DNA of 64,000 bases, from contig DASYSS010000057.1 in the NCBI GenBank assembly GCA_036003045.1, forward strand, positions 62,001 through 126,000. Direction: 5' to 3'. Made by a program: the position numbers and the translations under genes. The stretch's first letter is position 1. Every line of letters begins with the position of its first letter. A model generated the notes under the pieces. It had not been told where the DNA came from and ran no database searches. It worked only from the letters and a program-made list of their open reading frames with translations. This DNA comes from Gemmatimonadaceae bacterium. Its GTDB lineage: Bacteria > Gemmatimonadota > Gemmatimonadetes > Gemmatimonadales > Gemmatimonadaceae. Positions 2 to 63,526 of the stretch are shown in pieces.

Positions 2-964
2 ATCCGCCAAGGCCCGCGATCCGGCGGCACGTCGTTCGTGCTCCTGCACCACCTCATCGGCGCGCGAGCGGGCTCGGTTGGCGCGCGGCCGTGGTGGCGT
101 GACGGGCCGGATGCGTTCATCAGCGCGGTCGCCGACGTCGCACGCGGCAACGACGTTGCCGTCCGCACCGGTGCCGGCGCCGCCACGATCGTCGTGCGCG
201 ACGACGTCGTCACGGGCGTCGTCCTCGACACCGGCGAGGAGATCTCGGCACCGATCGTCGTTTCGACGGCCGATCCGGTGCTCACGTTGCTCGGCTTGGT
301 CGATCCGGTCTGGCTCGATCCCGAATTTCTCCACGCGGTGCGGAACATCAAGCTCCGCGGATGCACTGCGTTCGTGCGTTTCGCCCTCGACCGCCTGCCC
401 GACGTGTCGGGCTTCGACGATTCAACGTCGGCGCTCACCAGCACGATGAGCTTGACGCCGTCGCTCGATGCGCTCGAGCGCGCGTACGACGCGGCGAAGT
501 ACGGCGGCGTTTGCGGCGAGCCGCACATCGAGATCACGGCGCCGACGACGCGCTGGCCGTCGCTCGCTCCCGCCGGACAGCACGTGCTCCTCGCCCGAGT
601 GCACTACGCGCCGTATCAGTTGCGTGATGGTGCGGTGTGGGATGATACGCGTTCGTGCGAGCTCGGCGAGACCGTGATGGGGGCGATCGGCCGCGTCATG
701 CCGGGCTTCGCCGACGCGGTGCTGCATCGAGAGGTCCTCACGCCGCCCGATATCGAGACGCGCTTCGGCGTCACGCACGGCGCGATGACGCACGGCGAGA
801 TGACGCTCGATCAAATTTTGTTCATGCGCCCGGTACCCGGTTGGGGACGCTACTCCATGCCCATCGACGGCCTCTATCTGGCCGGATCCGGGGCGCATCC
901 CGGCCCGGGCGTCCTCGGCGGGGCGGGATGGTTGGCGGCGAAACGGATCCTGAGGGGCAAATGA
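2..964 (+). CDS. Phytoene-desaturase-like FAD oxidoreductase, C-terminal part
   Basis: The gene enters from outside the window; its frame is open from base 2, so only about the last 320 residues are visible and the N-terminal Rossmann FAD motif is missing. The end reads GLYLAGSGAHPGPGVLGGAG, which matches the C-terminal flavin-contact segment of phytoene desaturase/amine-oxidase-type dehydrogenases, and the middle carries an STADP segment typical of the same family. It overlaps the next gene by an ATGA junction, so the two are almost certainly translated together with the Rieske oxygenase. The substrate (carotenoid or another polyprenoid or aromatic) cannot be told from this part. Confidence 0.8.
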   Translation: MRQGPRSGGTSFVLLHHLIGARAGSVGARPWWRDGPDAFISAVADVARGNDVAVRTGAGAATIVVRDDVVTGVVLDTGEEISAPIVVSTADPVLTLLGLVDPVWLDPEFLHAVRNIKLRGCTAFVRFALDRLPDVSGFDDSTSALTSTMSLTPSLDALERAYDAAKYGGVCGEPHIEITAPTTRWPSLAPAGQHVLLARVHYAPYQLRDGAVWDDTRSCELGETVMGAIGRVMPGFADAVLHREVLTPPDIETRFGVTHGAMTHGEMTLDQILFMRPVPGWGRYSMPIDGLYLAGSGAHPGPGVLGGAGWLAAKRILRGK

Positions 965-2079
965 CCACGTATCACCGTACGGTCGAAGCGTACAAGCAGG
1001 GCGCGCATACGATGCCGCGCGAGTATTACACGTCGCCCGACGTCCTCGTCGAGGAGCGCGAGCGTATTTTCGCGCGCCACTGGAACTGCGTCGGCCGAGC
1101 GAGCCGAATCGCGCGGCCGGGTGATTACATCGTGCGCACTGTCGCCGGAGAATCGCTGATCGTCCTTCGCGATCGCGACGGCGAGCTGCGCGCGTTCTTC
1201 AACGTCTGCCGGCACCGTGGTACCCAGATCTGCCGCGAAGCGTCGGGTCAGTTCTCCGAGACGATCCAGTGCCCGTACCATGCGTGGACCTATACGACCG
1301 ATGGACGGCTCATCGGCGCGCCGCATATGCACGAGGTCGAGGGATTCGACAAGCGCGATTTTCCGCTGCACGCGGCGGCCGTGGCTGAATACGGGGGCTT
1401 TCTGTTCGTGAACGTCAGCGACGAACCGCAGCCCTTCGACCAATATTTTGCGCCGATGATGCCTCGGCTCTCGCGCTTTGGTCTCTCCGATCTCGAGGTC
1501 GGTCACAGCGTACGCTACGAGGTGCAGGCGAACTGGAAGCTCGTCTTCCAGAATTACTCGGAGTGCCTGCACTGTCCGATGATTCACCCTGAGTTGTCGG
1601 TCGTCCTGCCGTACCAGAGCGGGGCCAACGATCTGATCGATGGACCGTTCCTCGGCGGATACATGGAAATCAGCGCGCCGCACGAGAGCGCGACACTCAG
1701 CGGCCGAGCCTGCGGACGACCGGTGGCTCCCGCGCTGCCCGAGGCCGATCGGCATCGCGCGTTCTACTACACGCTCATGCCCAACCTGATGCTGAGCATC
1801 CATCCGGACTACGTGAACTACTATCTGCTCACGCCCGACGGTGTCGATCGGACGATCGTCGAATCGGAGTGGATGTTTTCACCGGAGAACAGGCACGACC
1901 CGGACTTCAATCCGGCCGACGCGGTCGCATTTTGGGACGTGACCAACCGGCAGGATTGGGACATCGTCGCCTGGAGTCAAAGGGGAATCGGCTCGCGCCG
2001 ATACGCGCCCGGTCCATATTCGCCACGCGAGAGCATTCCCGCGGCGTGGGATCGTGAGTACCTGCGGTTGATGACGTAG
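961..2079 (+). CDS. Rieske non-heme iron ring-hydroxylating oxygenase, alpha-type subunit
   Basis: The 372-residue protein carries a Rieske [2Fe-2S] motif, Cys83-x-His85 and Cys104-x2-His107, followed by a catalytic domain with the mononuclear iron facial triad His204, His209 and probably Asp333 (NRQDW segment). Proteins of this family use electrons from a separate reductase to insert oxygen into aromatic rings, quaternary amines or lipids. No reductase or beta subunit is adjacent, so it probably forms an alpha-only oligomer. The ATG at 961 sits in the ATGA overlap with the upstream flavoprotein, which points to one operon and a joint oxidative pathway. A short GGACCG/CGGTCC inverted repeat follows the stop codon near 2080-2100. 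Confidence 0.88.
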   Translation: MTTYHRTVEAYKQGAHTMPREYYTSPDVLVEERERIFARHWNCVGRASRIARPGDYIVRTVAGESLIVLRDRDGELRAFFNVCRHRGTQICREASGQFSETIQCPYHAWTYTTDGRLIGAPHMHEVEGFDKRDFPLHAAAVAEYGGFLFVNVSDEPQPFDQYFAPMMPRLSRFGLSDLEVGHSVRYEVQANWKLVFQNYSECLHCPMIHPELSVVLPYQSGANDLIDGPFLGGYMEISAPHESATLSGRACGRPVAPALPEADRHRAFYYTLMPNLMLSIHPDYVNYYLLTPDGVDRTIVESEWMFSPENRHDPDFNPADAVAFWDVTNRQDWDIVAWSQRGIGSRRYAPGPYSPRESIPAAWDREYLRLMT

Positions 2080-2174
2080 GGACCGCCGGGTCGCCGGTCC
2101 ACCGGCTGAAACCCGGGCGAACGGAGTGCGTACGACCTCGGGGGCAGGTCGCGCTCACTCTCGCCGGGACCGAC

Positions 2175-4598
2175 ATGCAATCGCTGCTTCGCGACGTCCG
2201 CTACGGCCTTCGATCGCTGTTGAAAGCTCCGGGTCTCACCGCCGTCGCCGTCCTCGCGCTGACGCTCGGCATCGGGCTCACGACGACGATGTTCAGCATC
2301 GTGTACGGCGCAATGCTCAGAGGGCTGCCGTACGCCGAGGGCGACCGCATCGTCACCCTTCGCCGGGAAAACCCGGCGCGCGGAATCAACCAGTCGGGAA
2401 TCTCGCTGCTCGATTTCGGCGACTACAAGGCGCAACAGCGGTCGTTCTCCGAGCTTGCGGCCGTGACGTCGGGGACGATCTTCGTGAGCGGCGACGAGAA
2501 AGCCGAGCGTTTCGACGGCGCCTGGATAACGTCCAACACGTTGTCGATGACCGGCGTGAAGCCGATTCTTGGACGGCACTTTCGCGCCGGCGAGGATACG
2601 CCGCAGGGCGAGAAGGTGGCGATTCTGGCGTACCGCATGTGGCACGACCGCTACGCGTCGGACGCGAACGTCATCGGACGCATCATCCGCGTGAACGGCG
2701 TGCCGACGACCGTGGTCGGCGTGATGCCCGAGCGGTTCGAGTTCCCGGAGAACGACCAGATCTGGCTCCCGATGCAAACGGATCCGAACGCGACCGATCG
2801 CGAACACAGCCCGCAGTACGAGGTCTTCGCAAAGCTGAAGCCGGGGGTGTCCCTCGATCAGGCAAACGTCGAGGTGGCGACGATCGCCAAGCGGCTTGCG
2901 GCCGCCTATCCGCAGGCCGACGAGGGATTCACGACCACCGCGCGAAACTTCATCGACAGCTACATCGGCAAAGAGCCGCGCCAACTGCTCTGGACGATGC
3001 TCGCGGCGGTCTTCTTCGTGCTGCTCATCGCGTGCGCCAACGTGGCGAATCTTTTGCTCGACCGCGCGGCGCATCGCACGAAAGAAGTCGGCGTGCGCAC
3101 CGCGCTCGGCGCTTCGCGCGGCGCCGTCGTCCGCCAGTTCCTGGCCGAGTCGCTGGTGCTGTCGCTGGCGGCCACCGGTTTCGGCGTCGCCGTCGCGTAT
3201 TTCGGCGTGGACGGATTCAACCGAGCCCTCGCCGCGACGACGCAGGTGCCATCCTTCATCGACATCCGTCTGCATCCGCAGGTCCTGCTGTTCACGATCG
3301 GCGTCGCGGCGCTCACGACGCTCGCCGCCGGCGCCATCCCGGCCTATCAATCGTCGCGCGCGGACATCAACGAGATCCTCAAGGACGATTCCCGCGGCGC
3401 ATCGAGCTTCCGCATCGGCCGCATCAGCAAAGGGCTCGTGATTTTCGAGATCGCGCTGTCGTGCGGGCTGCTCGTCGCCGCGGGCCTCATGATCAAGAGC
3501 GTCGCGCAGTTGCGGAATCTCGATCCCGGGTTCACGACGAAGGACGTGCTGACCGCTCGCGTCGGCTTCCCCGCCGCCTACACCGACACGATCGCGCAGT
3601 GGCGCTTCTTCGACGACGTGCAGCAAAGAGTCGCGGCGTTGCCGGGCGTCGTCTCCGCCTCGGTGAGCTCGGGACTTCCGGCCACGAGACAGGGCTTTGG
3701 AGGCGCGACGTTCGGCCTCGAGGGACAGAGCTACCTCAAAGACAAGGATTATCCGAACGCGCGTTGGTTGTCGGTGACACCCGACTTCTTCAACACGGTG
3801 AAGGCGCCGGTCCTCGACGGCCGCGCGTTCACGATCAGCGACCGCCCCGGCGAGCTTCCTGTTGCGATCGTCAATCGCGAGTTCGTCTCGAAGTTCTTCA
3901 AGAACCAGAGCCCGATCGGCAAACGCATTCGCATCGGAAACTCGACCAGCAAGCAGCCGTGGCTCACCGTCGTGGGTGTCGTCGGCAACATGTTCACCGG
4001 CGACAACGAGCGCCCGATCGTGCCGGCGATCTACCAACCGTTCGCTCAGTCGCGCCAGAATTTCGCCTGGATCTCGCTGCGCACGTCGGGCCCACCGACG
4101 TCGCTCGCCCCGTCGCTCCGCCAAACCGTTGCGTCGGTCAACCCGGACATTCCGCTCTATTGGGTGGACACGTACGAGCACCAGATCGCGCAGCAAGTAT
4201 GGTTCGTCCGCGTGTTCGGGACGATGTTCATGATCTTCGGGTTCGTCGCGCTCTTCCTGGCGTCGGTCGGCCTGTACGCGGTGATGTCGTTCTCGGTGAG
4301 CCGCAGAATCCGCGAAGTCGGTATCCGCATGGCCCTCGGCGCGCGCGCGCGCGACGTCGTGCGCATGATCTTCCGCCAAGGCCTCGTCCAGCTCGTCGTC
4401 GGCATGTCGCTCGGCCTGCTGTTCGCGACCGGGATGGGCCAGCTGCTCAAGGCCATTCTCTTCCAGGTTCAGCCGCGCGACCCGTCGATCTTCGTGGGTG
4501 TCGCGGTCGTGCTGACCCTGGTCGGCTTGATCGCGTGTCTGGTCCCCGCGCTACGCGCGACGCGGGTGGACCCGCTCGTCGCGTTGCGAAGCGAGTAG
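2175..4598 (+). CDS. ADOP-type (MacB/FtsX-like) ABC transporter permease
   Basis: This 807-residue membrane protein has two MacB periplasmic-core/FtsX repeats: an N-terminal helix (about residues 20-45), a periplasmic domain, an FtsX helical bundle (about 270-400), a second periplasmic domain (about 440-640) and a C-terminal FtsX bundle (about 680-800). The opening segment (LLRDVRYGLRSLLKAPG) is characteristic of the duplicated orphan permeases (ADOP) that are abundant in Acidobacteriota and Gemmatimonadota. They are thought to export substrates or move lipoproteins, with an ATPase encoded elsewhere; none is beside this gene. The ATG at 2175 is a good start. The tRNA-Asn unit begins 10 bases after its stop. 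Confidence 0.92.
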   Translation: MQSLLRDVRYGLRSLLKAPGLTAVAVLALTLGIGLTTTMFSIVYGAMLRGLPYAEGDRIVTLRRENPARGINQSGISLLDFGDYKAQQRSFSELAAVTSGTIFVSGDEKAERFDGAWITSNTLSMTGVKPILGRHFRAGEDTPQGEKVAILAYRMWHDRYASDANVIGRIIRVNGVPTTVVGVMPERFEFPENDQIWLPMQTDPNATDREHSPQYEVFAKLKPGVSLDQANVEVATIAKRLAAAYPQADEGFTTTARNFIDSYIGKEPRQLLWTMLAAVFFVLLIACANVANLLLDRAAHRTKEVGVRTALGASRGAVVRQFLAESLVLSLAATGFGVAVAYFGVDGFNRALAATTQVPSFIDIRLHPQVLLFTIGVAALTTLAAGAIPAYQSSRADINEILKDDSRGASSFRIGRISKGLVIFEIALSCGLLVAAGLMIKSVAQLRNLDPGFTTKDVLTARVGFPAAYTDTIAQWRFFDDVQQRVAALPGVVSASVSSGLPATRQGFGGATFGLEGQSYLKDKDYPNARWLSVTPDFFNTVKAPVLDGRAFTISDRPGELPVAIVNREFVSKFFKNQSPIGKRIRIGNSTSKQPWLTVVGVVGNMFTGDNERPIVPAIYQPFAQSRQNFAWISLRTSGPPTSLAPSLRQTVASVNPDIPLYWVDTYEHQIAQQVWFVRVFGTMFMIFGFVALFLASVGLYAVMSFSVSRRIREVGIRMALGARARDVVRMIFRQGLVQLVVGMSLGLLFATGMGQLLKAILFQVQPRDPSIFVGVAVVLTLVGLIACLVPALRATRVDPLVALRSE

Positions 4599-51458: not shown

Positions 51459-52736
51459 ATGCAGCGCGACACGCACGCCCCCCCCGCACCCCCCGCATGG
51501 CCGCTTCCCGCGGCGGAGCTACGCCCCGCGCTCGAACTGGCGCTGACGCTGGCGCGCGCGGACATGACCGTACTGCTGTTGCATGACGAGACGGCCGGAG
51601 CGCTCGTCCCCGCGGCGGCCTACGGCCTCGACGACGACCAAGCCGCACTGATCGGCGCGCACCAGCCCGGCGCCGACGCGTTCAGTCTCGCGTTGTCCGA
51701 GCACCGGCGAGTCGTCGTTCGCGACGCGCTCGACGGCAACGAATCGTTTGGCCCCCTCGCGCACTCGCTGGGCGTTCGCGCCTTCGAGATCGTCCCCCTC
51801 TTTGGGCTCGACGGCCAGACGATCGGCGAGCTCGTGATGATGTTCCGGCAAGCGCGCACGACGAGCAAACGCATGGTGCGCCTCGTCGACCAGTGCGCGC
51901 GGCTCGTCGTCGTCGCCGTGAGCCAAGCACGCGGACGCGCGGACGCCGAGCGAGCCCGCGAGCGCACCGAACAGGCGGGCCGAGCGAAGATTCAGTTCTT
52001 CGCGCGCATGAGTCACGAGCTGCGCACACCGCTGCAGTCGATCGCCGGATACATCGATCTGCTCCGTGTCGGCGCGGCCGATCCGCCGACGCCCGAACAG
52101 GCGCGGCTCCTCGCGCGCGTGCACGACAGCGAGGAGGTGCTCGTCCACGTCATCGACGATCTGATCACGTTCTCGCGTCTCGAGGCCGGGCACGTGTCCT
52201 ACCAGATCGCGCCCGTCTCGGCGGCCGAGGCGATTCGCATCGCCCACTCCGTCGTCGCACCACTCGCCTCGAGCCACAGCGTCTCGCTGGAGACGACGGC
52301 GTGCGCCGGACTGTTCGTGTCGGCCGATGGCGACAAGTTGAAACAGATTCTCGTGAATCTCGCGGCCAACGCCGTGAAGTTCTGCGGCACGGGCGGAGTC
52401 GTTCGCATTTCCTGTCAAAACGACGAGGACTGCGTGCGCTTCGACGTCAGCGACAACGGGCCCGGCATCCCCGGCGATCGGCTGGGCGACATCTTCGAGC
52501 CCTACGTTCAGCTCGCGACGCCGGCCTTCGAGGGATTCGGCGGGACGGGGTTGGGCCTCGCCATCAGCCGAGAATTCGCCACCGGCATGCACGGGCAACT
52601 GACGGTGGCGAGCAACCTGGGACTTGGATCGGTGTTCACGTTGCGGATCCCGAGCGCGGTGTCCATCGCCGCGAGCGCCGCGGCCAACGCGCGCGATGCG
52701 GCGCCGCCGTTGGCGGACAGCAGGCCGGCGGCGTAG
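51459..52736 (+). CDS. GAF-domain hybrid-type histidine kinase (soluble)
   Basis: The 425-residue protein has an N-terminal GAF domain (about 20-155), a linker coiled coil, HisKA (MSHELRTPLQSIAGYIDLL, His186) and a complete HATPase domain (NLAANAVKFCG, DNGPGIPG, GTGLGLAISREF). No membrane helix is present, so it senses a cytoplasmic signal. It is followed by a receiver gene eight bases downstream. Confidence 0.92.
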   Translation: MQRDTHAPPAPPAWPLPAAELRPALELALTLARADMTVLLLHDETAGALVPAAAYGLDDDQAALIGAHQPGADAFSLALSEHRRVVVRDALDGNESFGPLAHSLGVRAFEIVPLFGLDGQTIGELVMMFRQARTTSKRMVRLVDQCARLVVVAVSQARGRADAERARERTEQAGRAKIQFFARMSHELRTPLQSIAGYIDLLRVGAADPPTPEQARLLARVHDSEEVLVHVIDDLITFSRLEAGHVSYQIAPVSAAEAIRIAHSVVAPLASSHSVSLETTACAGLFVSADGDKLKQILVNLAANAVKFCGTGGVVRISCQNDEDCVRFDVSDNGPGIPGDRLGDIFEPYVQLATPAFEGFGGTGLGLAISREFATGMHGQLTVASNLGLGSVFTLRIPSAVSIAASAAANARDAAPPLADSRPAA

Positions 52737-52743
52737 GAATCCG

Positions 52744-53163
52744 ATGGGCGTGTCAGAGCTTCCAGCGCGCCGGCGCTCGCCCTGCACCGTGCTCGTGGTC
52801 GACGACGACGACGTCACGCGCCTCGCCGAGCGCGTCGTCCTCGAGCACTATGGCTTCGTCGTGCGCGAAGCCAGCCGCGGGCTCGAGGCGCTGGCCCTGG
52901 CGCAGATGAGCCGGCCGCGCGTCGTGTTGCTCGACGTAGTCCTCCCCGAGATCGACGGGCCGCAGCTCGCCGAGATGCTGCGGCGCGACCCGGCGATGTG
53001 CGACGCCTCGCTGATCGCCGTCTCCGCGTCCGAGAACGAGGAGGACCGCCGTCGCGCCCTGGACGCCGGGTGCAATGAATTTCATTACAAGCCGATGACG
53101 CCTGCCTCGCTGGCCGACGCGATCATCCGTCAGGCGAGGCGACCGCCGCGCATACGACTTTGA
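52744..53163 (+). CDS. Single-domain response regulator
   Basis: A 139-residue receiver protein (VVDDDD at 18-23, phosphorylated Asp64, Lys in HYKPMT) without output domain. It starts eight bases after the GAF kinase and is probably its phosphate acceptor. Confidence 0.9.
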   Translation: MGVSELPARRRSPCTVLVVDDDDVTRLAERVVLEHYGFVVREASRGLEALALAQMSRPRVVLLDVVLPEIDGPQLAEMLRRDPAMCDASLIAVSASENEEDRRRALDAGCNEFHYKPMTPASLADAIIRQARRPPRIRL

Positions 53164-53196
53164 TCCACTGGAGCCGACGGCCTGGGCGGGGCGATT

Positions 53197-53676
53197 ATGC
53201 CACCCGCCTCAAACCCCCCTCCCATGTCTCTTCCTCTTCGACAGTCCGACCTGGCTCGCCAGAGCTTCCTCAGCGCGACCGCGATGCTGCCGCCGTGCGT
53301 CCTCGTGGTGGACGACCACGAGGAAAGCCGCACCATCGCCCGCCTCGTGCTCGAACGCGCCGGATTTCGAGTGGCCGAGGCATCCACGGGGTCCGAAGGG
53401 CTTCGCCTCGCCGGATTACTCCGGCCGGCGGCCGTTCTCCTCGACCTCATCATGCCGGGACTCGACGGGTGGGAGCTCTCGCGACAACTCCACAAGAATC
53501 CCGCAACGGCGGGAGCGGCGGTTATCGCGTTGACGGCCGTCGCCGTTCCGGAAGATCACGACCGGGCGATTCTCGCCGGCTGTGACGCGGTGCTCACCAA
53601 ACCGGTGCGCCCGATTCGAATCGTCGAGACGGTGCAGCAGTTCGTGAGCCCGACGCGGATCGCAGCGCGCGTCTGA
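53197..53676 (+). CDS. Single-domain response regulator
   Basis: The 159-residue receiver protein has VVDDHEES (37-44), phosphorylated Asp83 and Lys in LTKPVR. An internal Met at 53224 may be the true start, since the first ten residues are Pro-rich. It is the last gene of this plus-strand run and converges with the second FixJ-type gene. Confidence 0.87.
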   Translation: MPPASNPPPMSLPLRQSDLARQSFLSATAMLPPCVLVVDDHEESRTIARLVLERAGFRVAEASTGSEGLRLAGLLRPAAVLLDLIMPGLDGWELSRQLHKNPATAGAAVIALTAVAVPEDHDRAILAGCDAVLTKPVRPIRIVETVQQFVSPTRIAARV

Positions 53677-53712
53677 CCTGCCGGGAGAATCGAGTCACGC
53701 GGCCGCTGACGG

Positions 53713-53768
53713 CGAAGCGCCGTCAGCGAAGCGGCGTCAGCGAAGCGGCGTCAGCGAAGCGCCGTCAG
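53713..53768. repeat. Four tandem 14-base repeats CGAAGCGSCGTCAG
   Basis: Copies run at 53713-53726, 53727-53740, 53741-53754 and 53755-53768. The first copy also makes a 9-base-pair hairpin with CTGACGGCG (53706-53714). The array sits between convergent genes and its last copy includes the stop codon of the FixJ-type gene, so it may act as a two-way terminator. Confidence 0.8.
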
Positions 53769-54448
53769 CCGAATGCCGGAACCGCCTCACGCCGCTCGGT
53801 ATGGAGCTCGCGCTTCTCGCCGCCGTTCAACATGTCGTACATGCGCACGAGATCGGCGATCGATTCGGCCTGCATCTTCGTCATGACGCGCGCGCGGTGC
53901 ACCTTGATCGTCTTCTCCGTCGTGCCCAACGCGGCCGCGATTTGCTTGTTGAGGCGACCGGCGGCGACCCAGGAGAACACTTCGCGCTCGCGGCGCGTCA
54001 GCTTGCCCATCCGCGCGCGAAGCTCGGTGGTCAACGCCTGCTCCTGCCACTGTTGGCGCGCCATGTCCGCCGCGCGGCCGAGCGACGCCAGCAGCACCGG
54101 TTCGTCGCACGGCTTCTCGAGGAAGTCGAGCGCGCCGGCGCGAATCGCCCGCACCGAGGTCGCGACGTCGCCGTGTCCCGAGAGGAACACCGTCGGGATC
54201 TTGATGCCGCGTTCGGTCAGCATCGACTGGAGCGTGAGCCCGTCGGTGCCCGGCATGCGCAGATCGACGAGCAGCATCTGCGGCTGCCACCGCTCGAGCG
54301 ACGAGAGGAACGCGGTGGCCGATGGAAACGTCGTCACGTCGTAACCGCACATCGACAACATTCGCGACAGTGAGCGCAGCACCGTCGCGTCGTCGTCCAC
54401 CAAGGCGATTTGCCACCGTGGGTCGGGACTTTTCGGAATCGCGAGCAT
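53765..54448 (-). CDS. FixJ-family response regulator (StyR/TodT-like)
   Basis: The 227-residue protein has a receiver (VDDD at 17-20, phosphorylated Asp62, FLSGHGDVATSVRAIRAGA, LEKP) and a LuxR-type HTH (LTRREREVFSWVAAGRLNKQ; TEKTIKVHRARVMTKM). It has the plain FixJ/StyR/TodT layout. The ATG at 54448 follows the kinase stop by 11 bases; an in-frame TTG upstream is less likely. It is the partner of the PAS kinase upstream and a prime candidate for binding the TTGGAC palindromes, one of which lies before its own operon. Confidence 0.93.
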   Translation of the reverse strand: MLAIPKSPDPRWQIALVDDDATVLRSLSRMLSMCGYDVTTFPSATAFLSSLERWQPQMLLVDLRMPGTDGLTLQSMLTERGIKIPTVFLSGHGDVATSVRAIRAGALDFLEKPCDEPVLLASLGRAADMARQQWQEQALTTELRARMGKLTRREREVFSWVAAGRLNKQIAAALGTTEKTIKVHRARVMTKMQAESIADLVRMYDMLNGGEKRELHTERREAVPAFG

Positions 54449-54459
54449 CGTCTGGTCCA

Positions 54460-56076
54460 CTAACAAGCCGGCAAGGTCACCCGGAATGCGGCGCCGCGTT
54501 CCTGTGGTGTCTCCAATCGCACCTGACCACCATGAGCTTGCACGATCGCGCGCACGATCGCGAGACCCAGCCCGGTGCCCTGGCGCTTCGTGGTAACAAA
54601 CGGTTCGAACACCCGATCGCGCAAGGGCTCCGGAACCCCGATCCCATTGTCGTGAACCCTGATCTCCACCTCGGACCCCGCGATGCGCCGCGTCGTGACG
54701 CGGACGTTACGTCGTCCGTTCGGTTGTTCGCTCACGGCTTCGATGGCGTTGAGCAGGAGGTTCATCAGTACCTGTTCGAGCTGCGCGCGCCCGCCGGCGA
54801 CGGATCCGGCCCCCGGGTCCAGCTGGAGGTCGATGGCGACCTGTCGAATGATCGCGTCGCTCTTCAACAGCCGCGCGACCTCCGACACGATGTCGTTGAC
54901 GGACACCGGCGCGATGGCCGGGTCGTCGCGGCGGACGATCCCTCGCGTCTGCCGCATCACCTCCGCGGCGCGCGAAGCGGCGTCGAGAATGTCGCGCGCA
55001 ATCGGTTCGAGCTCTTCGTCGCCGGGCCGATTCCGCGCCAAACGGCTGATCGTCGATGCCGCGGTCATGATCACGGTCAGCGGCTGATTGAGATCGTGCG
55101 CAATCGTCGTCGCCAATTCGCCCAGCGTGGCCAAGCGCTGCATGTGCGTGAGATCGTCGAGCCGCCTCGTCAGCGACTCGGCCGCCGCGTGGTCCGTGAT
55201 CTCCTCGTGCATGACGAGCGCGCCGAGCGGCGCTGGCTCGAGGCGCACGGCACGAATACGAAACCAGCGTTCGTCGGACTCCCCGGGTACCGACCAGCTG
55301 TAGTCCACGGAGGCGGTCTCGTCGACGCCCTCCAGGACTCGCCGGATTCCTTCGGCCGCTTCGCCGGCGCGAGCGTTCCCCCACTCTGCCGCACGCTGCG
55401 CGACCTCCAGGTAGCTCGCTCCGAGAAAGGCGTCGTCTCGCCCGAAGCGGCGGCAGAGCTTCACCCACGTGTGGTTGACCTCGATCACGAGGCCGTCGCG
55501 GTCGAGCACACCGGCCGACGAAGGCAGGGCGTTCCACGCGGCCTGGTAGGTTCGTTCCGTCGAGCGGAGCGAGTGCGCCCCGCCCACACGTTTGGTTTCA
55601 GCTTTGCCGGCGACTTCGCCGAGGCCGCGCGCCTCGCGCAGCTGGCGCGTCGTGAGCCCGAGCGCCTCGAGCGCACGGTGTTCGTCGGTCACGTCGAGGT
55701 GCGCCCCGCTCACCGTCCGCCCTTCTTGGTCCGCGCGAAGCACGCTGGTCCGAAGCCAGCGGACGGATCCGCACGCGTCGTAAATGCGATACTCGCAAAA
55801 GGCTCCGCGGTCCGGACGGGCGTCGTGCGCGCGATCGAGGAACAGCCGGAGCCGTCGCCGGTCTCGGTTGTGGGTTCGGTCGAGCCAGAACCCGTCAGCC
55901 CGCCACGCATCGCTCGCGTAGCCGAGCATTCGTACTACGCCCGGATCGATCGATTCGATGGCCCACGTATCGGCACGGGCGGTCCAGAAGACCACACCCA
56001 AGGCATCGATCGCGTCTCGGTTCGCGGCGTACTGAGTGCGCATTGGGGACCGATGGAAATTCGCGCCGTCGCCCAT
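54460..56076 (-). CDS. PAS-domain histidine kinase (FixL-like)
   Basis: The kinase (538 residues from the ATG at 56076) has two PAS regions (about 20-140 and 165-290), an H-box AHDLNQPLTVI (His327) of the FixL/NtrB type and an HATPase domain (LLNAIEAVSEQPNG, DNGIGVPEPL, GTGLGLAIVRAI). It has no membrane helix, so it senses a cytoplasmic signal. Open frame continues to 56175 but crosses an upstream terminator and an operator, so I start later; an ATG at 56043 is another option. Confidence 0.9.
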   Translation of the reverse strand: MGDGANFHRSPMRTQYAANRDAIDALGVVFWTARADTWAIESIDPGVVRMLGYASDAWRADGFWLDRTHNRDRRRLRLFLDRAHDARPDRGAFCEYRIYDACGSVRWLRTSVLRADQEGRTVSGAHLDVTDEHRALEALGLTTRQLREARGLGEVAGKAETKRVGGAHSLRSTERTYQAAWNALPSSAGVLDRDGLVIEVNHTWVKLCRRFGRDDAFLGASYLEVAQRAAEWGNARAGEAAEGIRRVLEGVDETASVDYSWSVPGESDERWFRIRAVRLEPAPLGALVMHEEITDHAAAESLTRRLDDLTHMQRLATLGELATTIAHDLNQPLTVIMTAASTISRLARNRPGDEELEPIARDILDAASRAAEVMRQTRGIVRRDDPAIAPVSVNDIVSEVARLLKSDAIIRQVAIDLQLDPGAGSVAGGRAQLEQVLMNLLLNAIEAVSEQPNGRRNVRVTTRRIAGSEVEIRVHDNGIGVPEPLRDRVFEPFVTTKRQGTGLGLAIVRAIVQAHGGQVRLETPQERGAAFRVTLPAC

Positions 56077-56100
56077 CGCCGGCCGGCCGCAGCAGGCTCC

Positions 56101-56106
56101 AATATA
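56101..56106 (-). promoter_or_regulatory. -10 box TATATT of the PAS kinase-regulator operon
   Basis: On the minus strand TATATT lies 25 bases before the start codon. No -35 box is recognisable, which fits an activator-dependent promoter. The operator at 56151-56166 would be centred about 64 bases upstream of the transcript start. Confidence 0.45.
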
Positions 56107-56150
56107 AGAATGCTCCTGCGCGCACCTAGGGGGCTGGGACCAGCCGGACG

Positions 56151-56166
56151 TTGGACGTTGGTCCAA
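56151..56166. promoter_or_regulatory. Perfect palindrome TTGGAC-GTTG-GTCCAA
   Basis: This is the only site that fits the 12 conserved bases exactly. It lies upstream of the PAS kinase-FixJ operon, suggesting autoregulation. Confidence 0.7.
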
Positions 56167-56173
56167 TAGGCGC

Positions 56174-56212
56174 AAAGGTCGGCGACCCAGGGCGTTGGGG
56201 TCGCCGACCTTT
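56174..56212 (-). terminator. Terminator of the DUF4136 lipoprotein gene
   Basis: AAAGGTCGGCGACCC and its complement form a perfect 15-base-pair stem with a nine-base loop. On the minus strand it ends in TTTG. It separates the lipoprotein from the PAS kinase operon. Confidence 0.8.
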
Positions 56213-56236
56213 GGACGGGAAGACCGGGTATCCGCG

Positions 56237-56950
56237 TTACGGCGCCGGAACCGCCGTCAAATACGGCGAGAGCGCGAACATCTTGTCGATCGCCGTCGTC
56301 ACCGTGAGGGTGGTGATCGACCCGTTGAGCAGTCCGGTCGCGACGCCGGCCCAGGCCGCCTGAATGGTCTCGTTGGCCTGATCGATGCTCGACGTCGGCA
56401 CGATCGTGACGATCAACGTGCCACGGGCAAACGACGTCGCTCCGACGACCGGGGCCCACGGGTAGATGATGCCCCACGCCCCGCTGAACCCAGGTGTAAA
56501 GAAATCGAAAATCGGCGAGAATCCCCAGAAGTTGAACCACGGGAACGTGACGAACGCGTTGAAGTTGTCCGTGGCCGTCGCACCGACGAGCACGACGAAA
56601 TCCGGTGTGACGCCCGGGGTGTTGCTGACGTCCGTGTACCCGCGCGCGAGCAGGTCGGCGCGGACCTGATTCAGCGCCACCGCGTCGAACTGACCCGTCA
56701 CGGGTAGCGGCGTCCCGGTGATCGGAACGAGGTGCGCGACGGTGTCCGGCATGGCGAACGTGTGCAGACTGGCAAAGTTGAAATTTGAATCCTTGAACGT
56801 CGTGACGATGCCCGCTACCGGGGTGATGAGGTTCGTGTTGTCGCTGCACGCGCCGATGCCAGCCAGCACGGCGACGCCGCTCAACAAACCGAGAGTCCGC
56901 CGGAGACCATCCGCGTGGCGCCGCGTCCCCCCCCAAATGCTTCTGACCAT
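56237..56950 (-). CDS. DUF4136 domain lipoprotein
   Basis: The 237-residue product has a lipoprotein signal (VAVLAGIGACSDN) and a DUF4136 domain (KDSNFNFASLHTFAMPDTV opening). Such proteins are envelope-anchored and of unknown function. The ATG at 56950 is set by GGAGGA upstream and by the signal; a longer frame has no basis. It is divergent from the MASE1 kinase, with TTGGAC sites between them. Confidence 0.85.
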   Translation of the reverse strand: MVRSIWGGTRRHADGLRRTLGLLSGVAVLAGIGACSDNTNLITPVAGIVTTFKDSNFNFASLHTFAMPDTVAHLVPITGTPLPVTGQFDAVALNQVRADLLARGYTDVSNTPGVTPDFVVLVGATATDNFNAFVTFPWFNFWGFSPIFDFFTPGFSGAWGIIYPWAPVVGATSFARGTLIVTIVPTSSIDQANETIQAAWAGVATGLLNGSITTLTVTTAIDKMFALSPYLTAVPAP

Positions 56951-57053
56951 GTGCTCCTCCAAAGGTGCTGTCGTGGTTGACTCGCGGCACGCGCCGCACA
57001 TCCACTTTGGCGGGAGTACCTGCGGCGACGTATTGGCTGTTGGCCCGTCGTCC

Positions 57054-57109
57054 TTGGTCCAATGCGCGGCGCCGTCCCCGGTTGTGCCCGGCATTGGACT
57101 AAAGTCCAC
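57054..57109. promoter_or_regulatory. TTGGAC-TAAA-GTCCAC plus TTGG-T-CCAA
   Basis: The first palindrome (57094-57109) fits at 11 of 12 positions; the second (57054-57062) is a compact TTGGTCCAA. They lie between the divergent DUF4136 and MASE1 kinase genes, 81 bases from the kinase start. Confidence 0.65.
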
Positions 57110-57189
57110 TGTGGGCAACCAACCCGGTCGCGCACGCTACACGCCGATTTCCGACGGACGAAATCCGATGGGGTACGCCCGATGAGCCA

Positions 57190-59853
57190 GTGGGGCACGC
57201 CAGCACCGTGACGCGCGAGCGACCGAAGCAACTCGCGCTCATGGCTCTCGTCACGGCGGCGGCGTACTACGCCGCGGCGCGCGTCGGCGTAGCGCTCCGA
57301 CCGGACTCGCAAGCCATCTCGATGCTCTGGCCGCCGAACGCCGTTCTGTTCGGTGCCCTGCTCCTCGCACCGATCGAGTGGTGGGCGACCCTCATCCTCG
57401 CGACGCTGCCACCACAGCTCTTTGGCGAGCTGCAAGGGGGCGTGCCCTTCCGCATGGCGCTGCTGTGGTATCTCAGCAACGCCGCTGAAGCGCTCGTCGG
57501 CGCGGCGTGCATCCGATACCTGATCCCACGACCTGTCCGCTTCGACAGTTTCAAACGCGTTCTCATCTTCGTCGGATTCGGGGCGTTTCTCGCGCCGTTC
57601 CTGACCTCGTTCCTCGACGTCGCGTTCGTCCGCCTCGACGGCTGGCACACCGCCGACGCCGACTACTGGACGATGTGGCGCGCGCGATTCTTCTCGAACG
57701 CGCTGGCCATCCTCACGCTCGTACCCGCGGTCGTACCCTGGGACATCGAAACGTTGAAGGCGTTGCGCGTGATACGGCCGCGACGGATCGCCGAAGCGGC
57801 CGTCCTGGGCGTCGGGCTGCTCCTCGTGTGCACGCTCGTCGTATGGCGCGAACCCGTCTTCCCGCTCACCGCGCACGTGCTTCTGTTCGTGCCGCTGCCA
57901 TTTCTGCTCTGGGCCGCCGTGCGTTTCGGTCCGGGCGGAGCCGGCGCATGCCTGTTGACCTTTTCCGTCCTCACGATCTGGGGCGTCGCTCACGGCGAGG
58001 GTCCCTTCGTCGATCCGCCCGAAGCCGACGATGTTCTTTCCATTCAGCTGTATCTCATCGTCACCTACATCCCGATCATGGTCTTGTCGGCCGTGATTCG
58101 GGAGCGGGCGCACGCCGAGTCGTTGGCTCGGCGCAACGAGCAGCGGTTGAATCTCGTGCTGGGCGCCGCGCAGATGGGCACGTGGGACCTCGACATCTCG
58201 AGCGGGCGCACCACGCTGTGCGGGCGCTCGCGCGAGATCTTCGGGCTCGTCGACGCGCCCTGCGAAATCGGTTGGTCCACCTTCACCGAGTCCCTCGGCG
58301 ACGACGAGCGTGAACGCGTCGAAGCAGCGACGACGCGCGCGATCCAAAACGACGAGCCGTACGAGGTCGAGGTGCAGGTCGCGCCGCCTTCATCCGGCAC
58401 GCGCTGGGTATTGAGCAAAGGAAGCGTCGTCCGCGACTCCGACGGCCGCCCGCTGCGTATGCTCGGCATTCACGTCGACGTCACCGAACGAAAGCAGGCC
58501 GAGGCGGCGCTGCGCGAGGAAGCGACGCTTCGCGCTCTCCGCGAAGAGCTGGAGCAACGCGTCGCCGAGCGGACCGCCGAGCTCTCGCTCATCAATCGCG
58601 TACTGCTCGAGGAGATCGACGTGCGCGAACGGATCGGACGCGCCCTCCGCGCGTCGGAGGAGCGGTTCGCCAAGGCGTTCCGCGCCAGCCCGGACGCGAT
58701 GTCGATCATTCGCCGAGCCGACGCGCGCGTCATCGAGGTCAACGAGCGATGGGTGGCGATGTTCGGCTTCGCGCGCGAAGAGGCGATCGGGCAGACGCTG
58801 CAGTCGCTTGGGATCACGCCGCGTGATTCGAACCATCGAGACGGCCTCGGTCCGCTCTCATCGCCGCAGGGATCGGTTCGCGACGCGGAGGTCGAGCTGC
58901 ACAATCGCCGCGGTGAGGCGCTCTATGCGTTGGTGACCTCGGAAACCGTCGAGGTCGCGGGCGAGCAGTGCCTCATCGCCATGATCAGAGACATCACCGA
59001 ACGGCGCCGCGCCGAGCATGAAGTGGTCGCGCAAAGGCGGCAGCTCGCTCACCTGGGCCGCGTCGCGCTGCTCGGTGAGCTTTCCGGAGCGCTCGCGCAC
59101 GAGCTGAATCAACCGCTGGCGGCGATCCTCGCCAACGCGCGCGCCGGCCAGCGGATGCTGTTCCGCGACGAGCTCGATCGCGTCGAGCTGAGTCGGATTC
59201 TCGAGGACATCGCCGCCGACGACCGACGCGCCGGCAGCGTCATCCATCGTGTGCGCGCCATGCTGCGGCAAGGCGAGACCGAGCCGCAGCGAGTCGTGGC
59301 GAACGATCTCATCGCCGAGGTGCTCGACCTCGCGCACAGTGACCTGATCCAGCGGAGCGTGACCGTCACGACGCGTCTCGATCCATCGCTGCCCTCGGTG
59401 GCGGCGGACCGCGTGCAGCTTCAACAAGTGCTGCTCAACCTCATCGTCAACGCCTGCGACGCGATGAGCGACAATGCGCCGACCGATCGACACATATGGA
59501 TAGCCACCGCCAACGAGGGGGCGGCGGTGCGCGTCTCGGTCTCGGACTGTGGCGCCGGCATCGCGCGGCACCCTGTCGACTCAGTCTTCGAGCCCTTCAT
59601 CACGTCGAAGGCACATGGACTCGGCCTCGGCCTTTCGATTTGCCGGTCGATCGTCGACGGACACGGCGGTCGGATGTGGGCGTCGAACAACGAGGATCGA
59701 GGCGCCACCTTCACGTTCCTGCTCCCGCGAACCGAGGTCGCGCTCGAAGTGCCGCCGGCCTGGCGAGCTCAGGACGGTATCCGTTTCAGCGCCGACCCCC
59801 GGCCTGCGGGTGCCGACCGTTTCGCCGACAGCCCGATCGTTCGCGGTGCGTAG
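57190..59853 (+). CDS. MASE1-PAS-PAS histidine kinase (membrane sensor)
   Basis: The 887-residue kinase has an N-terminal MASE1 membrane domain of seven or eight helices (about 15-310), a PAS domain (about 320-430), a coiled coil, a second PAS (about 495-610), HisKA (AHELNQPLAAILANAR, His637) and HATPase (LIVNACDAMSDN, GLGLGLSICRSI). The HELNQPL H-box is of the FixL/TodS-like class that pairs with FixJ-type regulators. No regulator is cotranscribed. The start is the GTG at 57190; a GTG at 57208 is possible. Confidence 0.92.
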   Translation: MGHASTVTRERPKQLALMALVTAAAYYAAARVGVALRPDSQAISMLWPPNAVLFGALLLAPIEWWATLILATLPPQLFGELQGGVPFRMALLWYLSNAAEALVGAACIRYLIPRPVRFDSFKRVLIFVGFGAFLAPFLTSFLDVAFVRLDGWHTADADYWTMWRARFFSNALAILTLVPAVVPWDIETLKALRVIRPRRIAEAAVLGVGLLLVCTLVVWREPVFPLTAHVLLFVPLPFLLWAAVRFGPGGAGACLLTFSVLTIWGVAHGEGPFVDPPEADDVLSIQLYLIVTYIPIMVLSAVIRERAHAESLARRNEQRLNLVLGAAQMGTWDLDISSGRTTLCGRSREIFGLVDAPCEIGWSTFTESLGDDERERVEAATTRAIQNDEPYEVEVQVAPPSSGTRWVLSKGSVVRDSDGRPLRMLGIHVDVTERKQAEAALREEATLRALREELEQRVAERTAELSLINRVLLEEIDVRERIGRALRASEERFAKAFRASPDAMSIIRRADARVIEVNERWVAMFGFAREEAIGQTLQSLGITPRDSNHRDGLGPLSSPQGSVRDAEVELHNRRGEALYALVTSETVEVAGEQCLIAMIRDITERRRAEHEVVAQRRQLAHLGRVALLGELSGALAHELNQPLAAILANARAGQRMLFRDELDRVELSRILEDIAADDRRAGSVIHRVRAMLRQGETEPQRVVANDLIAEVLDLAHSDLIQRSVTVTTRLDPSLPSVAADRVQLQQVLLNLIVNACDAMSDNAPTDRHIWIATANEGAAVRVSVSDCGAGIARHPVDSVFEPFITSKAHGLGLGLSICRSIVDGHGGRMWASNNEDRGATFTFLLPRTEVALEVPPAWRAQDGIRFSADPRPAGADRFADSPIVRGA

Positions 59854-62314: not shown

Positions 62315-63526
62315 TCAGCGCCGCGTAGCCGCCGAAGCTCGTCGCGACATTCGCGACGACGCTCGCGTCGCGGCCAGCTTCCAGAACTGCCGCTCGCCGA
62401 TCACCGTCACCTTGTGCCCCTTCGACGCGAGGCGCCGGACGTTGATCAGCTTCGAGCCCCCGTCCTTTCCGGCGATTTGCAGGGCGTTCGGACGTCCGCG
62501 CACCAACACGTCGGTGCTCTGCCCCGGCTTCGACTGGACGATGGCGCCGGCGCGCTTGGCCGCGGCGATGGCCTCGCGCCTCGGACGCTCGAGGAATCCG
62601 GTGAACGACAGGCGCACGCCCTTGAGACTTTTTATACGACCGAGCCGCGGCTCCTTCGGCCGATGTCGCAGCGCCGCGATCAACTCGCTTGCGGCCTCGT
62701 AGCGGGCGCCGCGCGAGCCGAGGCAGCGGTGAATGACTTCCTTGAGATGGTCACTGCAGGGAAGGCCCCGCACATCCTTGCTGCGCATCGGACTCGTGAT
62801 GTCGCCGCGCAGCAGCATCCCGGCGATGAGGCCGACCTGGTAGACGTCGTCGCGCCGTTGCCACCGGCGAATTCGACCCCACGCGATTTCATTCGGCGCG
62901 TGGAAGACGTTGAACGCGTCGGCGGTGACGCCCCTTCGGCTCAGCTGATGTGTCGCGATGCCGAAGTCGCCGAGCTTGAGCTTTTCGCCCGCGCAGACGA
63001 AGACGTTGAACGGCGTGAGGTCGCGATGCAGCGCCTGACCGCGATGGAGAGCGTCGAGCGCGCTCAAGATCGCGGCGATCTCGCGTCGGACGAAGCGCTC
63101 CGACTGCGCGCCGCGCTGCCCGAGCCAGGCGCCGAGGTCGCCATGCTCGGCGTATTCGAGCGCCAAGCAGTAGCGCACTTCGTCTCCGTCGGCCTCGGCA
63201 AATCGGTCGAAGACGCGAAGCGCGCGGTCCTCGCGGGCGAGGAGGTCGGCGAAATACGCCTCCCGCAGCCAGCCCGACACTCGGTCGCTGATCTTGACGC
63301 AAATCTGGCCCGGTAGCACCGGTCCGCCGATGGTGGTCGCGAGGTACACCTCGCCGAATCCGCCCTTGCCGATGCGCTTGTCGAGCCGGTAGGTGCGTCC
63401 GGATTCCGAGCTGTACGCCGTGCGGTGCGACGCCGCTTCGGGCGGCGGATGCTGAGCCGCGACCGGGGGCGCCGGCCGCGTGTGGTGCCGGGTGACGTGA
63501 GCGCGAAGCGTGACGTTGTCTGCCAT
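62315..63526 (-). CDS. Ser/Thr protein kinase with C-terminal BRCT domain
   Basis: The 403-residue protein is a Hanks-type kinase: P-loop GKGGFGEV (53-60), Lys78, catalytic HRDLTPFN (167-174) and DFG (187-189). It has no membrane helix and no PASTA domain. Residues about 300-384 form a BRCT domain close to that of bacterial DNA ligase LigA (KGVRLSFTGFL, then GSKLINVRRLAS and a terminal Trp). BRCT domains bind DNA ends or phosphopeptides, so the kinase may act at DNA or bind its own phosphorylated targets. The ATG at 63526 is preferred over a longer frame. The 378 bases downstream to 61937 hold no gene I can support. Confidence 0.9.
   Translation of the reverse strand: MADNVTLRAHVTRHHTRPAPPVAAQHPPPEAASHRTAYSSESGRTYRLDKRIGKGGFGEVYLATTIGGPVLPGQICVKISDRVSGWLREAYFADLLAREDRALRVFDRFAEADGDEVRYCLALEYAEHGDLGAWLGQRGAQSERFVRREIAAILSALDALHRGQALHRDLTPFNVFVCAGEKLKLGDFGIATHQLSRRGVTADAFNVFHAPNEIAWGRIRRWQRRDDVYQVGLIAGMLLRGDITSPMRSKDVRGLPCSDHLKEVIHRCLGSRGARYEAASELIAALRHRPKEPRLGRIKSLKGVRLSFTGFLERPRREAIAAAKRAGAIVQSKPGQSTDVLVRGRPNALQIAGKDGGSKLINVRRLASKGHKVTVIGERQFWKLAATRASSRMSRRASAATRR

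Follow-up and report, generated by a model that had tools for sequence, protein, structure and literature searches.

A conserved bacterial Ser/Thr kinase with a predicted LigA/RFC1-type BRCT domain, a candidate DNA-end-directed kinase

The window, a stretch of 64,000 nucleotides from the 5.37 Mb genome of a Gemmatimonadaceae bacterium, encodes a protein in which a predicted Hanks-type Ser/Thr kinase is followed by a domain with a modelled BRCT fold. The whole architecture is kept in 43 orthologues that are 47–76% identical to the window protein, and therefore the fusion is not due to chance. Kinases and BRCT domains are each well known, whereas their combination and its conservation appear to be new. 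No description of kinase-BRCT proteins in bacteria was found in the open-access literature, an absence that is not a proof. Kinase-BRCT proteins occur in three phyla of soil bacteria. DNA ligase and clamp loaders hold broken DNA by a BRCT of this type, and the fusion may thus serve to detect DNA damage and relay the signal by phosphorylation.

Domain organization of the kinase-BRCT protein

The gene is an uninterrupted open reading frame with an ATG at position 63526 and a stop codon ending at position 62315 (Table 1). The protein starts with a disordered N-terminus, which is followed by the kinase, the BRCT domain, and a basic C-terminal tail. N-terminal residues 1–30 have a pLDDT of approximately 40 in the AlphaFold2 model. 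The frequency of the majority residue in the alignment of 44 sequences is 0.41 in the N-terminal extension, compared to 0.73 in both the kinase and the BRCT domain. No transmembrane stretch is apparent in the window protein when its sequence is judged by eye.

Table 1. Features of the kinase-BRCT gene and its product, in window coordinates
Feature	Residues	Positions	Strand	Evidence
Kinase-BRCT fusion protein, 403 aa		62315..63526	(-)	Translation, Pfam, NCBIfam, alignment with 43 orthologues
N-terminal extension, low confidence, poorly conserved	1–38	63413..63526	(-)	pLDDT, residue frequency
Hanks-type kinase domain (predicted)	~45–290	62657..63394	(-)	PF00069 (E 9e-20), conserved catalytic residues, Foldseek best match PknB
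BRCT domain (predicted)	~298–385	62372..62635	(-)	NCBIfam, AlphaFold2, Foldseek and VIA-align to LigA/RFC1, residue invariance
Arg-rich C-terminal tail, net charge +6 in the window protein	386–403	62318..62371	(-)	Sequence, computed charge

The Pfam profile PF00069 matches residues 45–245 with a score of 71.5 bits, compared to a cut-off of 31.7 (E 9e-20). The catalytic motifs of the kinase are the G-loop G53–G58, K78, E89, HRD 167–169, N174, and DFG 187–189, each of which is kept in 43 or 44 of the 44 family members. Judged by its profile match and its complete catalytic set, the window protein is a Hanks-type Ser/Thr kinase. The best structural match of the predicted kinase fold, identified using Foldseek, is PknB.

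The initial annotation described a kinase followed by a LigA-like BRCT domain at residues 300–384. This arrangement is borne out by PF00069, NCBIfam, phmmer, AlphaFold2, Foldseek, and VIA-align, and the boundaries are right to within two residues (298–385 here). Of the checks proposed in the annotation, structure prediction returned the BRCT topology, whereas the Pfam profile PF00533 remained below the threshold when applied to the C-terminus of the window protein alone (E 0.0043, 17.7 bits, cut-off 21.3). The gathering score of PF00533 is a threshold of sensitivity and not a biological feature. The profile matches 13 of the 44 family members at E ≤ 0.01, with the best value of 9e-5. The NCBIfam model PRK06195, which represents DnaQ exonucleases that end in a BRCT, matches residues 296–384 (E 1.2e-6). 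The top phmmer match of the window protein in the PDB is the BRCT of T. thermophilus LigA, and LigA or RFC1 account for nine of the ten matches of the family BRCT profile to all PDB sequences.

The secondary structure elements of the C-terminal domain in the AlphaFold2 model of the full protein are in the order b1-a1-b2-b3-a2-b4-a3. The strands are formed by residues 305–309, 329–331, 340–343, and 374–377, and the helices by residues 316–325, 358–368, and from 378 onwards, with W382 in the last helix. The pLDDT is approximately 88–95 over residues 301–340, and the loop 348–356 is weak; the BRCT modelled alone has a mean pLDDT of 75.5. In Foldseek searches, the isolated BRCT model gives E-values of 2e-5 with bacterial LigA, 1.4e-4 with RFC1 on nicked DNA, and 2.5e-4 with the human RFC1 BRCT. 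In VIA-align, RFC1 is the top match (Z 9.3 over 78 residues at 2.3 Å, with 35% identity), and LigA comes third (Z 8.7). The model thus indicates that the C-terminal domain has a BRCT fold of the LigA/RFC1 subclass. Each kinase-BRCT protein contains one BRCT, and not the tandem of phosphopeptide-binding domains of the BRCA1 type.

Residues T309, G310, R316, and K359 of the BRCT are invariant in all 44 members, down to an identity of 47%. T309 and G310 follow strand 1, R316 is part of helix 1, and K359 precedes helix 2. In phmmer and profile alignments, T309-G310 and R316 align with the ITG and the arginine of LigA and RFC1, and K359 is aligned through a GSKL match to LigA. The equivalents in RFC1, which we take to be T415, G416, R423, and K458, presumably bind the 5′ phosphate; given these assumed roles, the family has the conserved phosphate-pocket residues of RFC1/LigA-type BRCTs. 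R343 and N347 are also invariant. The net charge of the BRCT in the family is +9 to +17, with a median of +13, compared to +2 in LigA from the same genome and +1 in a DnaQ-type exonuclease-BRCT protein.

Distribution and genomic context

Forty-six loci encoding the kinase-BRCT protein were found in approximately 85,000 species genomes, and all belong to Gemmatimonadota, Acidobacteriota, or Eisenbacteria, including one filed as Chloroflexi. Only 0.06 changes per site lie between the kinase-BRCT on the Chloroflexi-filed contig (L038) and a nearly identical one from Gemmatimonadota, and this contig is probably mis-binned. Full-length orthologues with 69–76% identity to the window protein are present in eight of 58 other relatives. 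In samples of near-complete genomes searched with the BRCT profile, 12 of 150 from Gemmatimonadota and eight of 149 from Acidobacteriota carry the strong form, and one of the eight carriers (G326) is divergent. The full-length profile identified the protein in seven of the 47 genomes of an Eisenbacteria sample. The gene is single-copy in the 43 carrier genomes tested, except for two with a split BRCT-profile match. In loci L047 and L048, the BRCT match is split across two reading frames, owing to an assembly error or decay.

The tree of the family follows the phyla, with Gemmatimonadota separate from Acidobacteriota plus Eisenbacteria, indicating that the two domains were joined long ago in these groups and not by a recent accident. 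A mobile origin of the gene was rejected: plasmids and phages yielded no full-length match, viral contigs yielded no relative, and the tree follows the phyla. A genome of 7.5 Mb from the Acidobacteriota sample encodes a divergent kinase-BRCT protein, 41–44% identical to the closest members of the family (L075:6202–7326, +), at a distance of 38 kb from Ku. The BRCT of this protein is above the PF00533 cut-off (22.9 bits), and the equivalents of the T, G, R, and K of the pocket are also readable in it.

The kinase-BRCT protein co-occurs strongly with Ku at the level of genomes. Ku is present in 12 of 12 Gemmatimonadota carriers compared to 82 of 138 other genomes (Fisher P 0.003), and in seven of eight Acidobacteriota carriers compared to 43 of 141 others (P 0.002), both values being uncorrected for phylogeny and genome size. 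It was detected in 42 of the 46 genomes from which the loci were fetched; of the four carriers with no detectable Ku, some are partial genomes. In genera g5, g14, and g43, carriers and non-carriers are not cleanly distinguished by Ku. Physical linkage to the Ku-LigD genes of bacterial non-homologous end joining (NHEJ) is not constant and is found in L069 and a few Gemmatimonadota loci. In L069, from Eisenbacteria, LigD on the minus strand is followed by Ku, a MerR-TPR gene, and the kinase-BRCT on the plus strand, and the gaps between the last three genes are short, approximately 10 to 105 bases. This operon is not repeated in the further Eisenbacteria loci. The protein encoded between Ku and the kinase-BRCT (L069:6910–7803, +) combines a MerR-type helix-turn-helix with TPR and is a possible regulator or partner.

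LigD polymerase or ligase genes are positioned within 8 kb of the kinase-BRCT in Gemmatimonadota loci L030, L035, L037, and L047, and these four of the five NHEJ-linked loci apparently form one clade. Genes for AlkZ-like DNA glycosylases are found within 5 kb in L031, L042, and L045, in differing orientations. In a post hoc test based on copy number and genome size, genomes with a nearby ligase number three compared to 0.23 expected, and those with a nearby AlkZ-like gene three compared to 0.04 expected. Most kinase-BRCT copies, including that of the window, have no repair neighbours. Away from the linked loci, the surroundings of the gene are mixed. The initial annotation pointed to the region upstream of the window end as a place to look for repair genes, and none is present at the window copy. 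Its neighbours are ordinary: a peptidase-like open reading frame (called by eye, with no Pfam match), a TonB-dependent receptor, a VanY/M15-like peptidase, and a pilin-like protein. Elsewhere in the window, sensor histidine kinases and receiver proteins (GAF, PAS, and MASE1 domains) are clustered at positions 51459–59853.

A conserved operon was rejected after clustering of open reading frames across 52 loci gave no gene family common to most of them. SOS control was likewise rejected, as no LexA-type inverted repeats were found upstream of the kinase-BRCT genes, except for one isolated match in L049. Kinases represent four of the 94 proteins in the neighbour survey. In L077, the gene for another Ser/Thr kinase, larger and of ordinary type, lies near that of the kinase-BRCT (725–3418, -).

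Possible function and alternative explanations

The isolated BRCT of RFC1 prefers DNA with a 5′ phosphate, which it binds by its deep groove with a Kd of approximately 10 nM, and yeast Rfc1 lacking the BRCT confers sensitivity to MMS (PMC9293009). We give roughly even chances to the explanation that the kinase-BRCT protein is a soluble Ser/Thr kinase recruited by its RFC1/LigA-type BRCT to 5′-phosphorylated DNA ends, nicks, and gaps. In the following scheme, we infer the DNA binding, the DNA-dependent activation, and the substrates of the enzyme. The BRCT would bind 5′-phosphorylated termini at nicks, gaps, or breaks and thereby concentrate the kinase at lesions. Activation between neighbouring lesion-bound copies would be favoured, and the active kinase may phosphorylate nearby repair, end-joining, or cell-cycle proteins. 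The DNA-damage kinase proposed in the initial annotation gains indirect support from the invariant pocket, the basic charge, the co-occurrence with Ku, and the linkage of some copies to LigD/Ku or AlkZ-like genes, but not from the surroundings of the window copy. Its analogy to checkpoint proteins is kept as a hypothesis. A broader reading, which we put forward only tentatively, is that the proteins form a family of DNA-break-sensing kinases in Gemmatimonadota, Acidobacteriota, and Eisenbacteria, in which an end reader and a kinase are combined in one protein with a logic like that of DNA-PK and ATM, and which would act together with Ku/LigD and with alkylation or crosslink repair.

The main alternative is that the BRCT docks a partner protein or a phosphopeptide, such as a ligase, a clamp, RNA polymerase, or an autophosphorylated site, and makes no direct contact with DNA ends. 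Many BRCTs are protein-interaction modules, and those of the LigA type can dock proteins too. Both a phospho-residue and a 5′ phosphate could be accommodated by the T-G-K pocket, and the model also matches the phosphopeptide-binding BRCTs of Rad4 and TopBP1 (Z 7.4–7.9 in VIA-align). The BRCT of RFC1 itself binds proteins as well (PMC9293009). However, the top matches are LigA and RFC1, which are 28–35% identical over the aligned part, compared to 5–20% for the other BRCTs listed by VIA-align. Furthermore, the domain is single and not tandem, and it is far more basic than the BRCTs of the LigA and DnaQ-BRCT proteins compared. We consider docking in place of DNA-end binding unlikely, though a serious contender.

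A role in anti-phage defence, in which the kinase would detect the ends of phage DNA or intermediates of repair and then shut down the cell, is disfavoured as improbable. The patchy distribution of the protein and its variable neighbours would fit such a role, and the PADLOC kinase models PD-T4-6 and MAD6 match all 44 members. However, these matches cover the generic kinase domain, ordinary kinases nearby are matched with far better E-values, and the score is far under the NCBIfam MADS6 cut-off (58.9 compared to 460 bits). The 25 commonest PADLOC families of the 94 neighbours include no non-kinase defence family. The phylum-wise tree, which speaks against recent transfer, and the lack of full-length plasmid or phage matches point in the same direction. 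These genomes encode many Hanks kinases of diverse kinds, and the protein could also be an ordinary one engaged in signalling, with a BRCT that persists as a structural remnant and has no ligand. This is very improbable, since the BRCT is as conserved as the kinase, and T309, R316, R343, N347, and K359 are invariant and kept between phyla.

Comparison with known kinases and BRCT proteins

The kinase-BRCT protein shares its kinase fold with PknB-type Hanks kinases, but its architecture has no PASTA or membrane part, and its activation segment, as read from the alignment, has the motif N-x-x-x-A-P-x-E instead of the usual GTPxYxAPE. With the BRCTs of RFC1 (p140) and LigA, it has in common the fold, the top sequence and structure matches, and the T-G, R, and K positions. 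RFC1 and LigA use the BRCT in a clamp loader and a ligase, respectively, whereas in the present family its partner domain is a kinase, and its basic charge is much higher than in the LigA BRCT of the same genome. Outside the kinase family, the BRCT closest by sequence is that of DnaQ-type exonuclease-BRCT proteins (PRK06195; L072, L073), which have a similarly long loop before helix 2 and a GHxxxIIxExxF-like ending. In contrast, these proteins have an exonuclease in place of the kinase and a BRCT charge of +1. One Gemmatimonadota genome (G074) has two near-identical genes of this type, located on different contigs (L072:201–1217 and L073:1472–2686). In a genome sampled as Acidobacteriota, parts of which are masked with N, adjoining open reading frames encode a DnaQ-like exonuclease-BRCT and another protein with a BRCT-like end (L074:264–1926, -).

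DNA damage signalling by phosphorylation is a hallmark of eukaryotes, and bacteria are thought to depend mainly on RecA/LexA. To our knowledge, the small number of damage-linked kinases known in bacteria, RqkA and YabT, have other sensor parts. RqkA of Deinococcus radiodurans is, like the kinase-BRCT protein, a bacterial Ser/Thr kinase; it responds to DNA damage and phosphorylates RecA, PprA, FtsZ, and FtsA, and no BRCT is described for it in the passages cited here (PMC6052341). YabT of Bacillus subtilis is an ssDNA-dependent Ser/Thr kinase that phosphorylates RecA, and the passages cited for it likewise describe no BRCT (PMC4754617). YabT, unlike the kinase-BRCT protein, is expressed at the time of sporulation. 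We take it to be membrane-anchored, and the sensor part of RqkA is presumably a different domain. Set beside these two enzymes, a conserved kinase with a covalently attached BRCT of the DNA-end type makes damage signalling by phosphorylation in bacteria directly testable.
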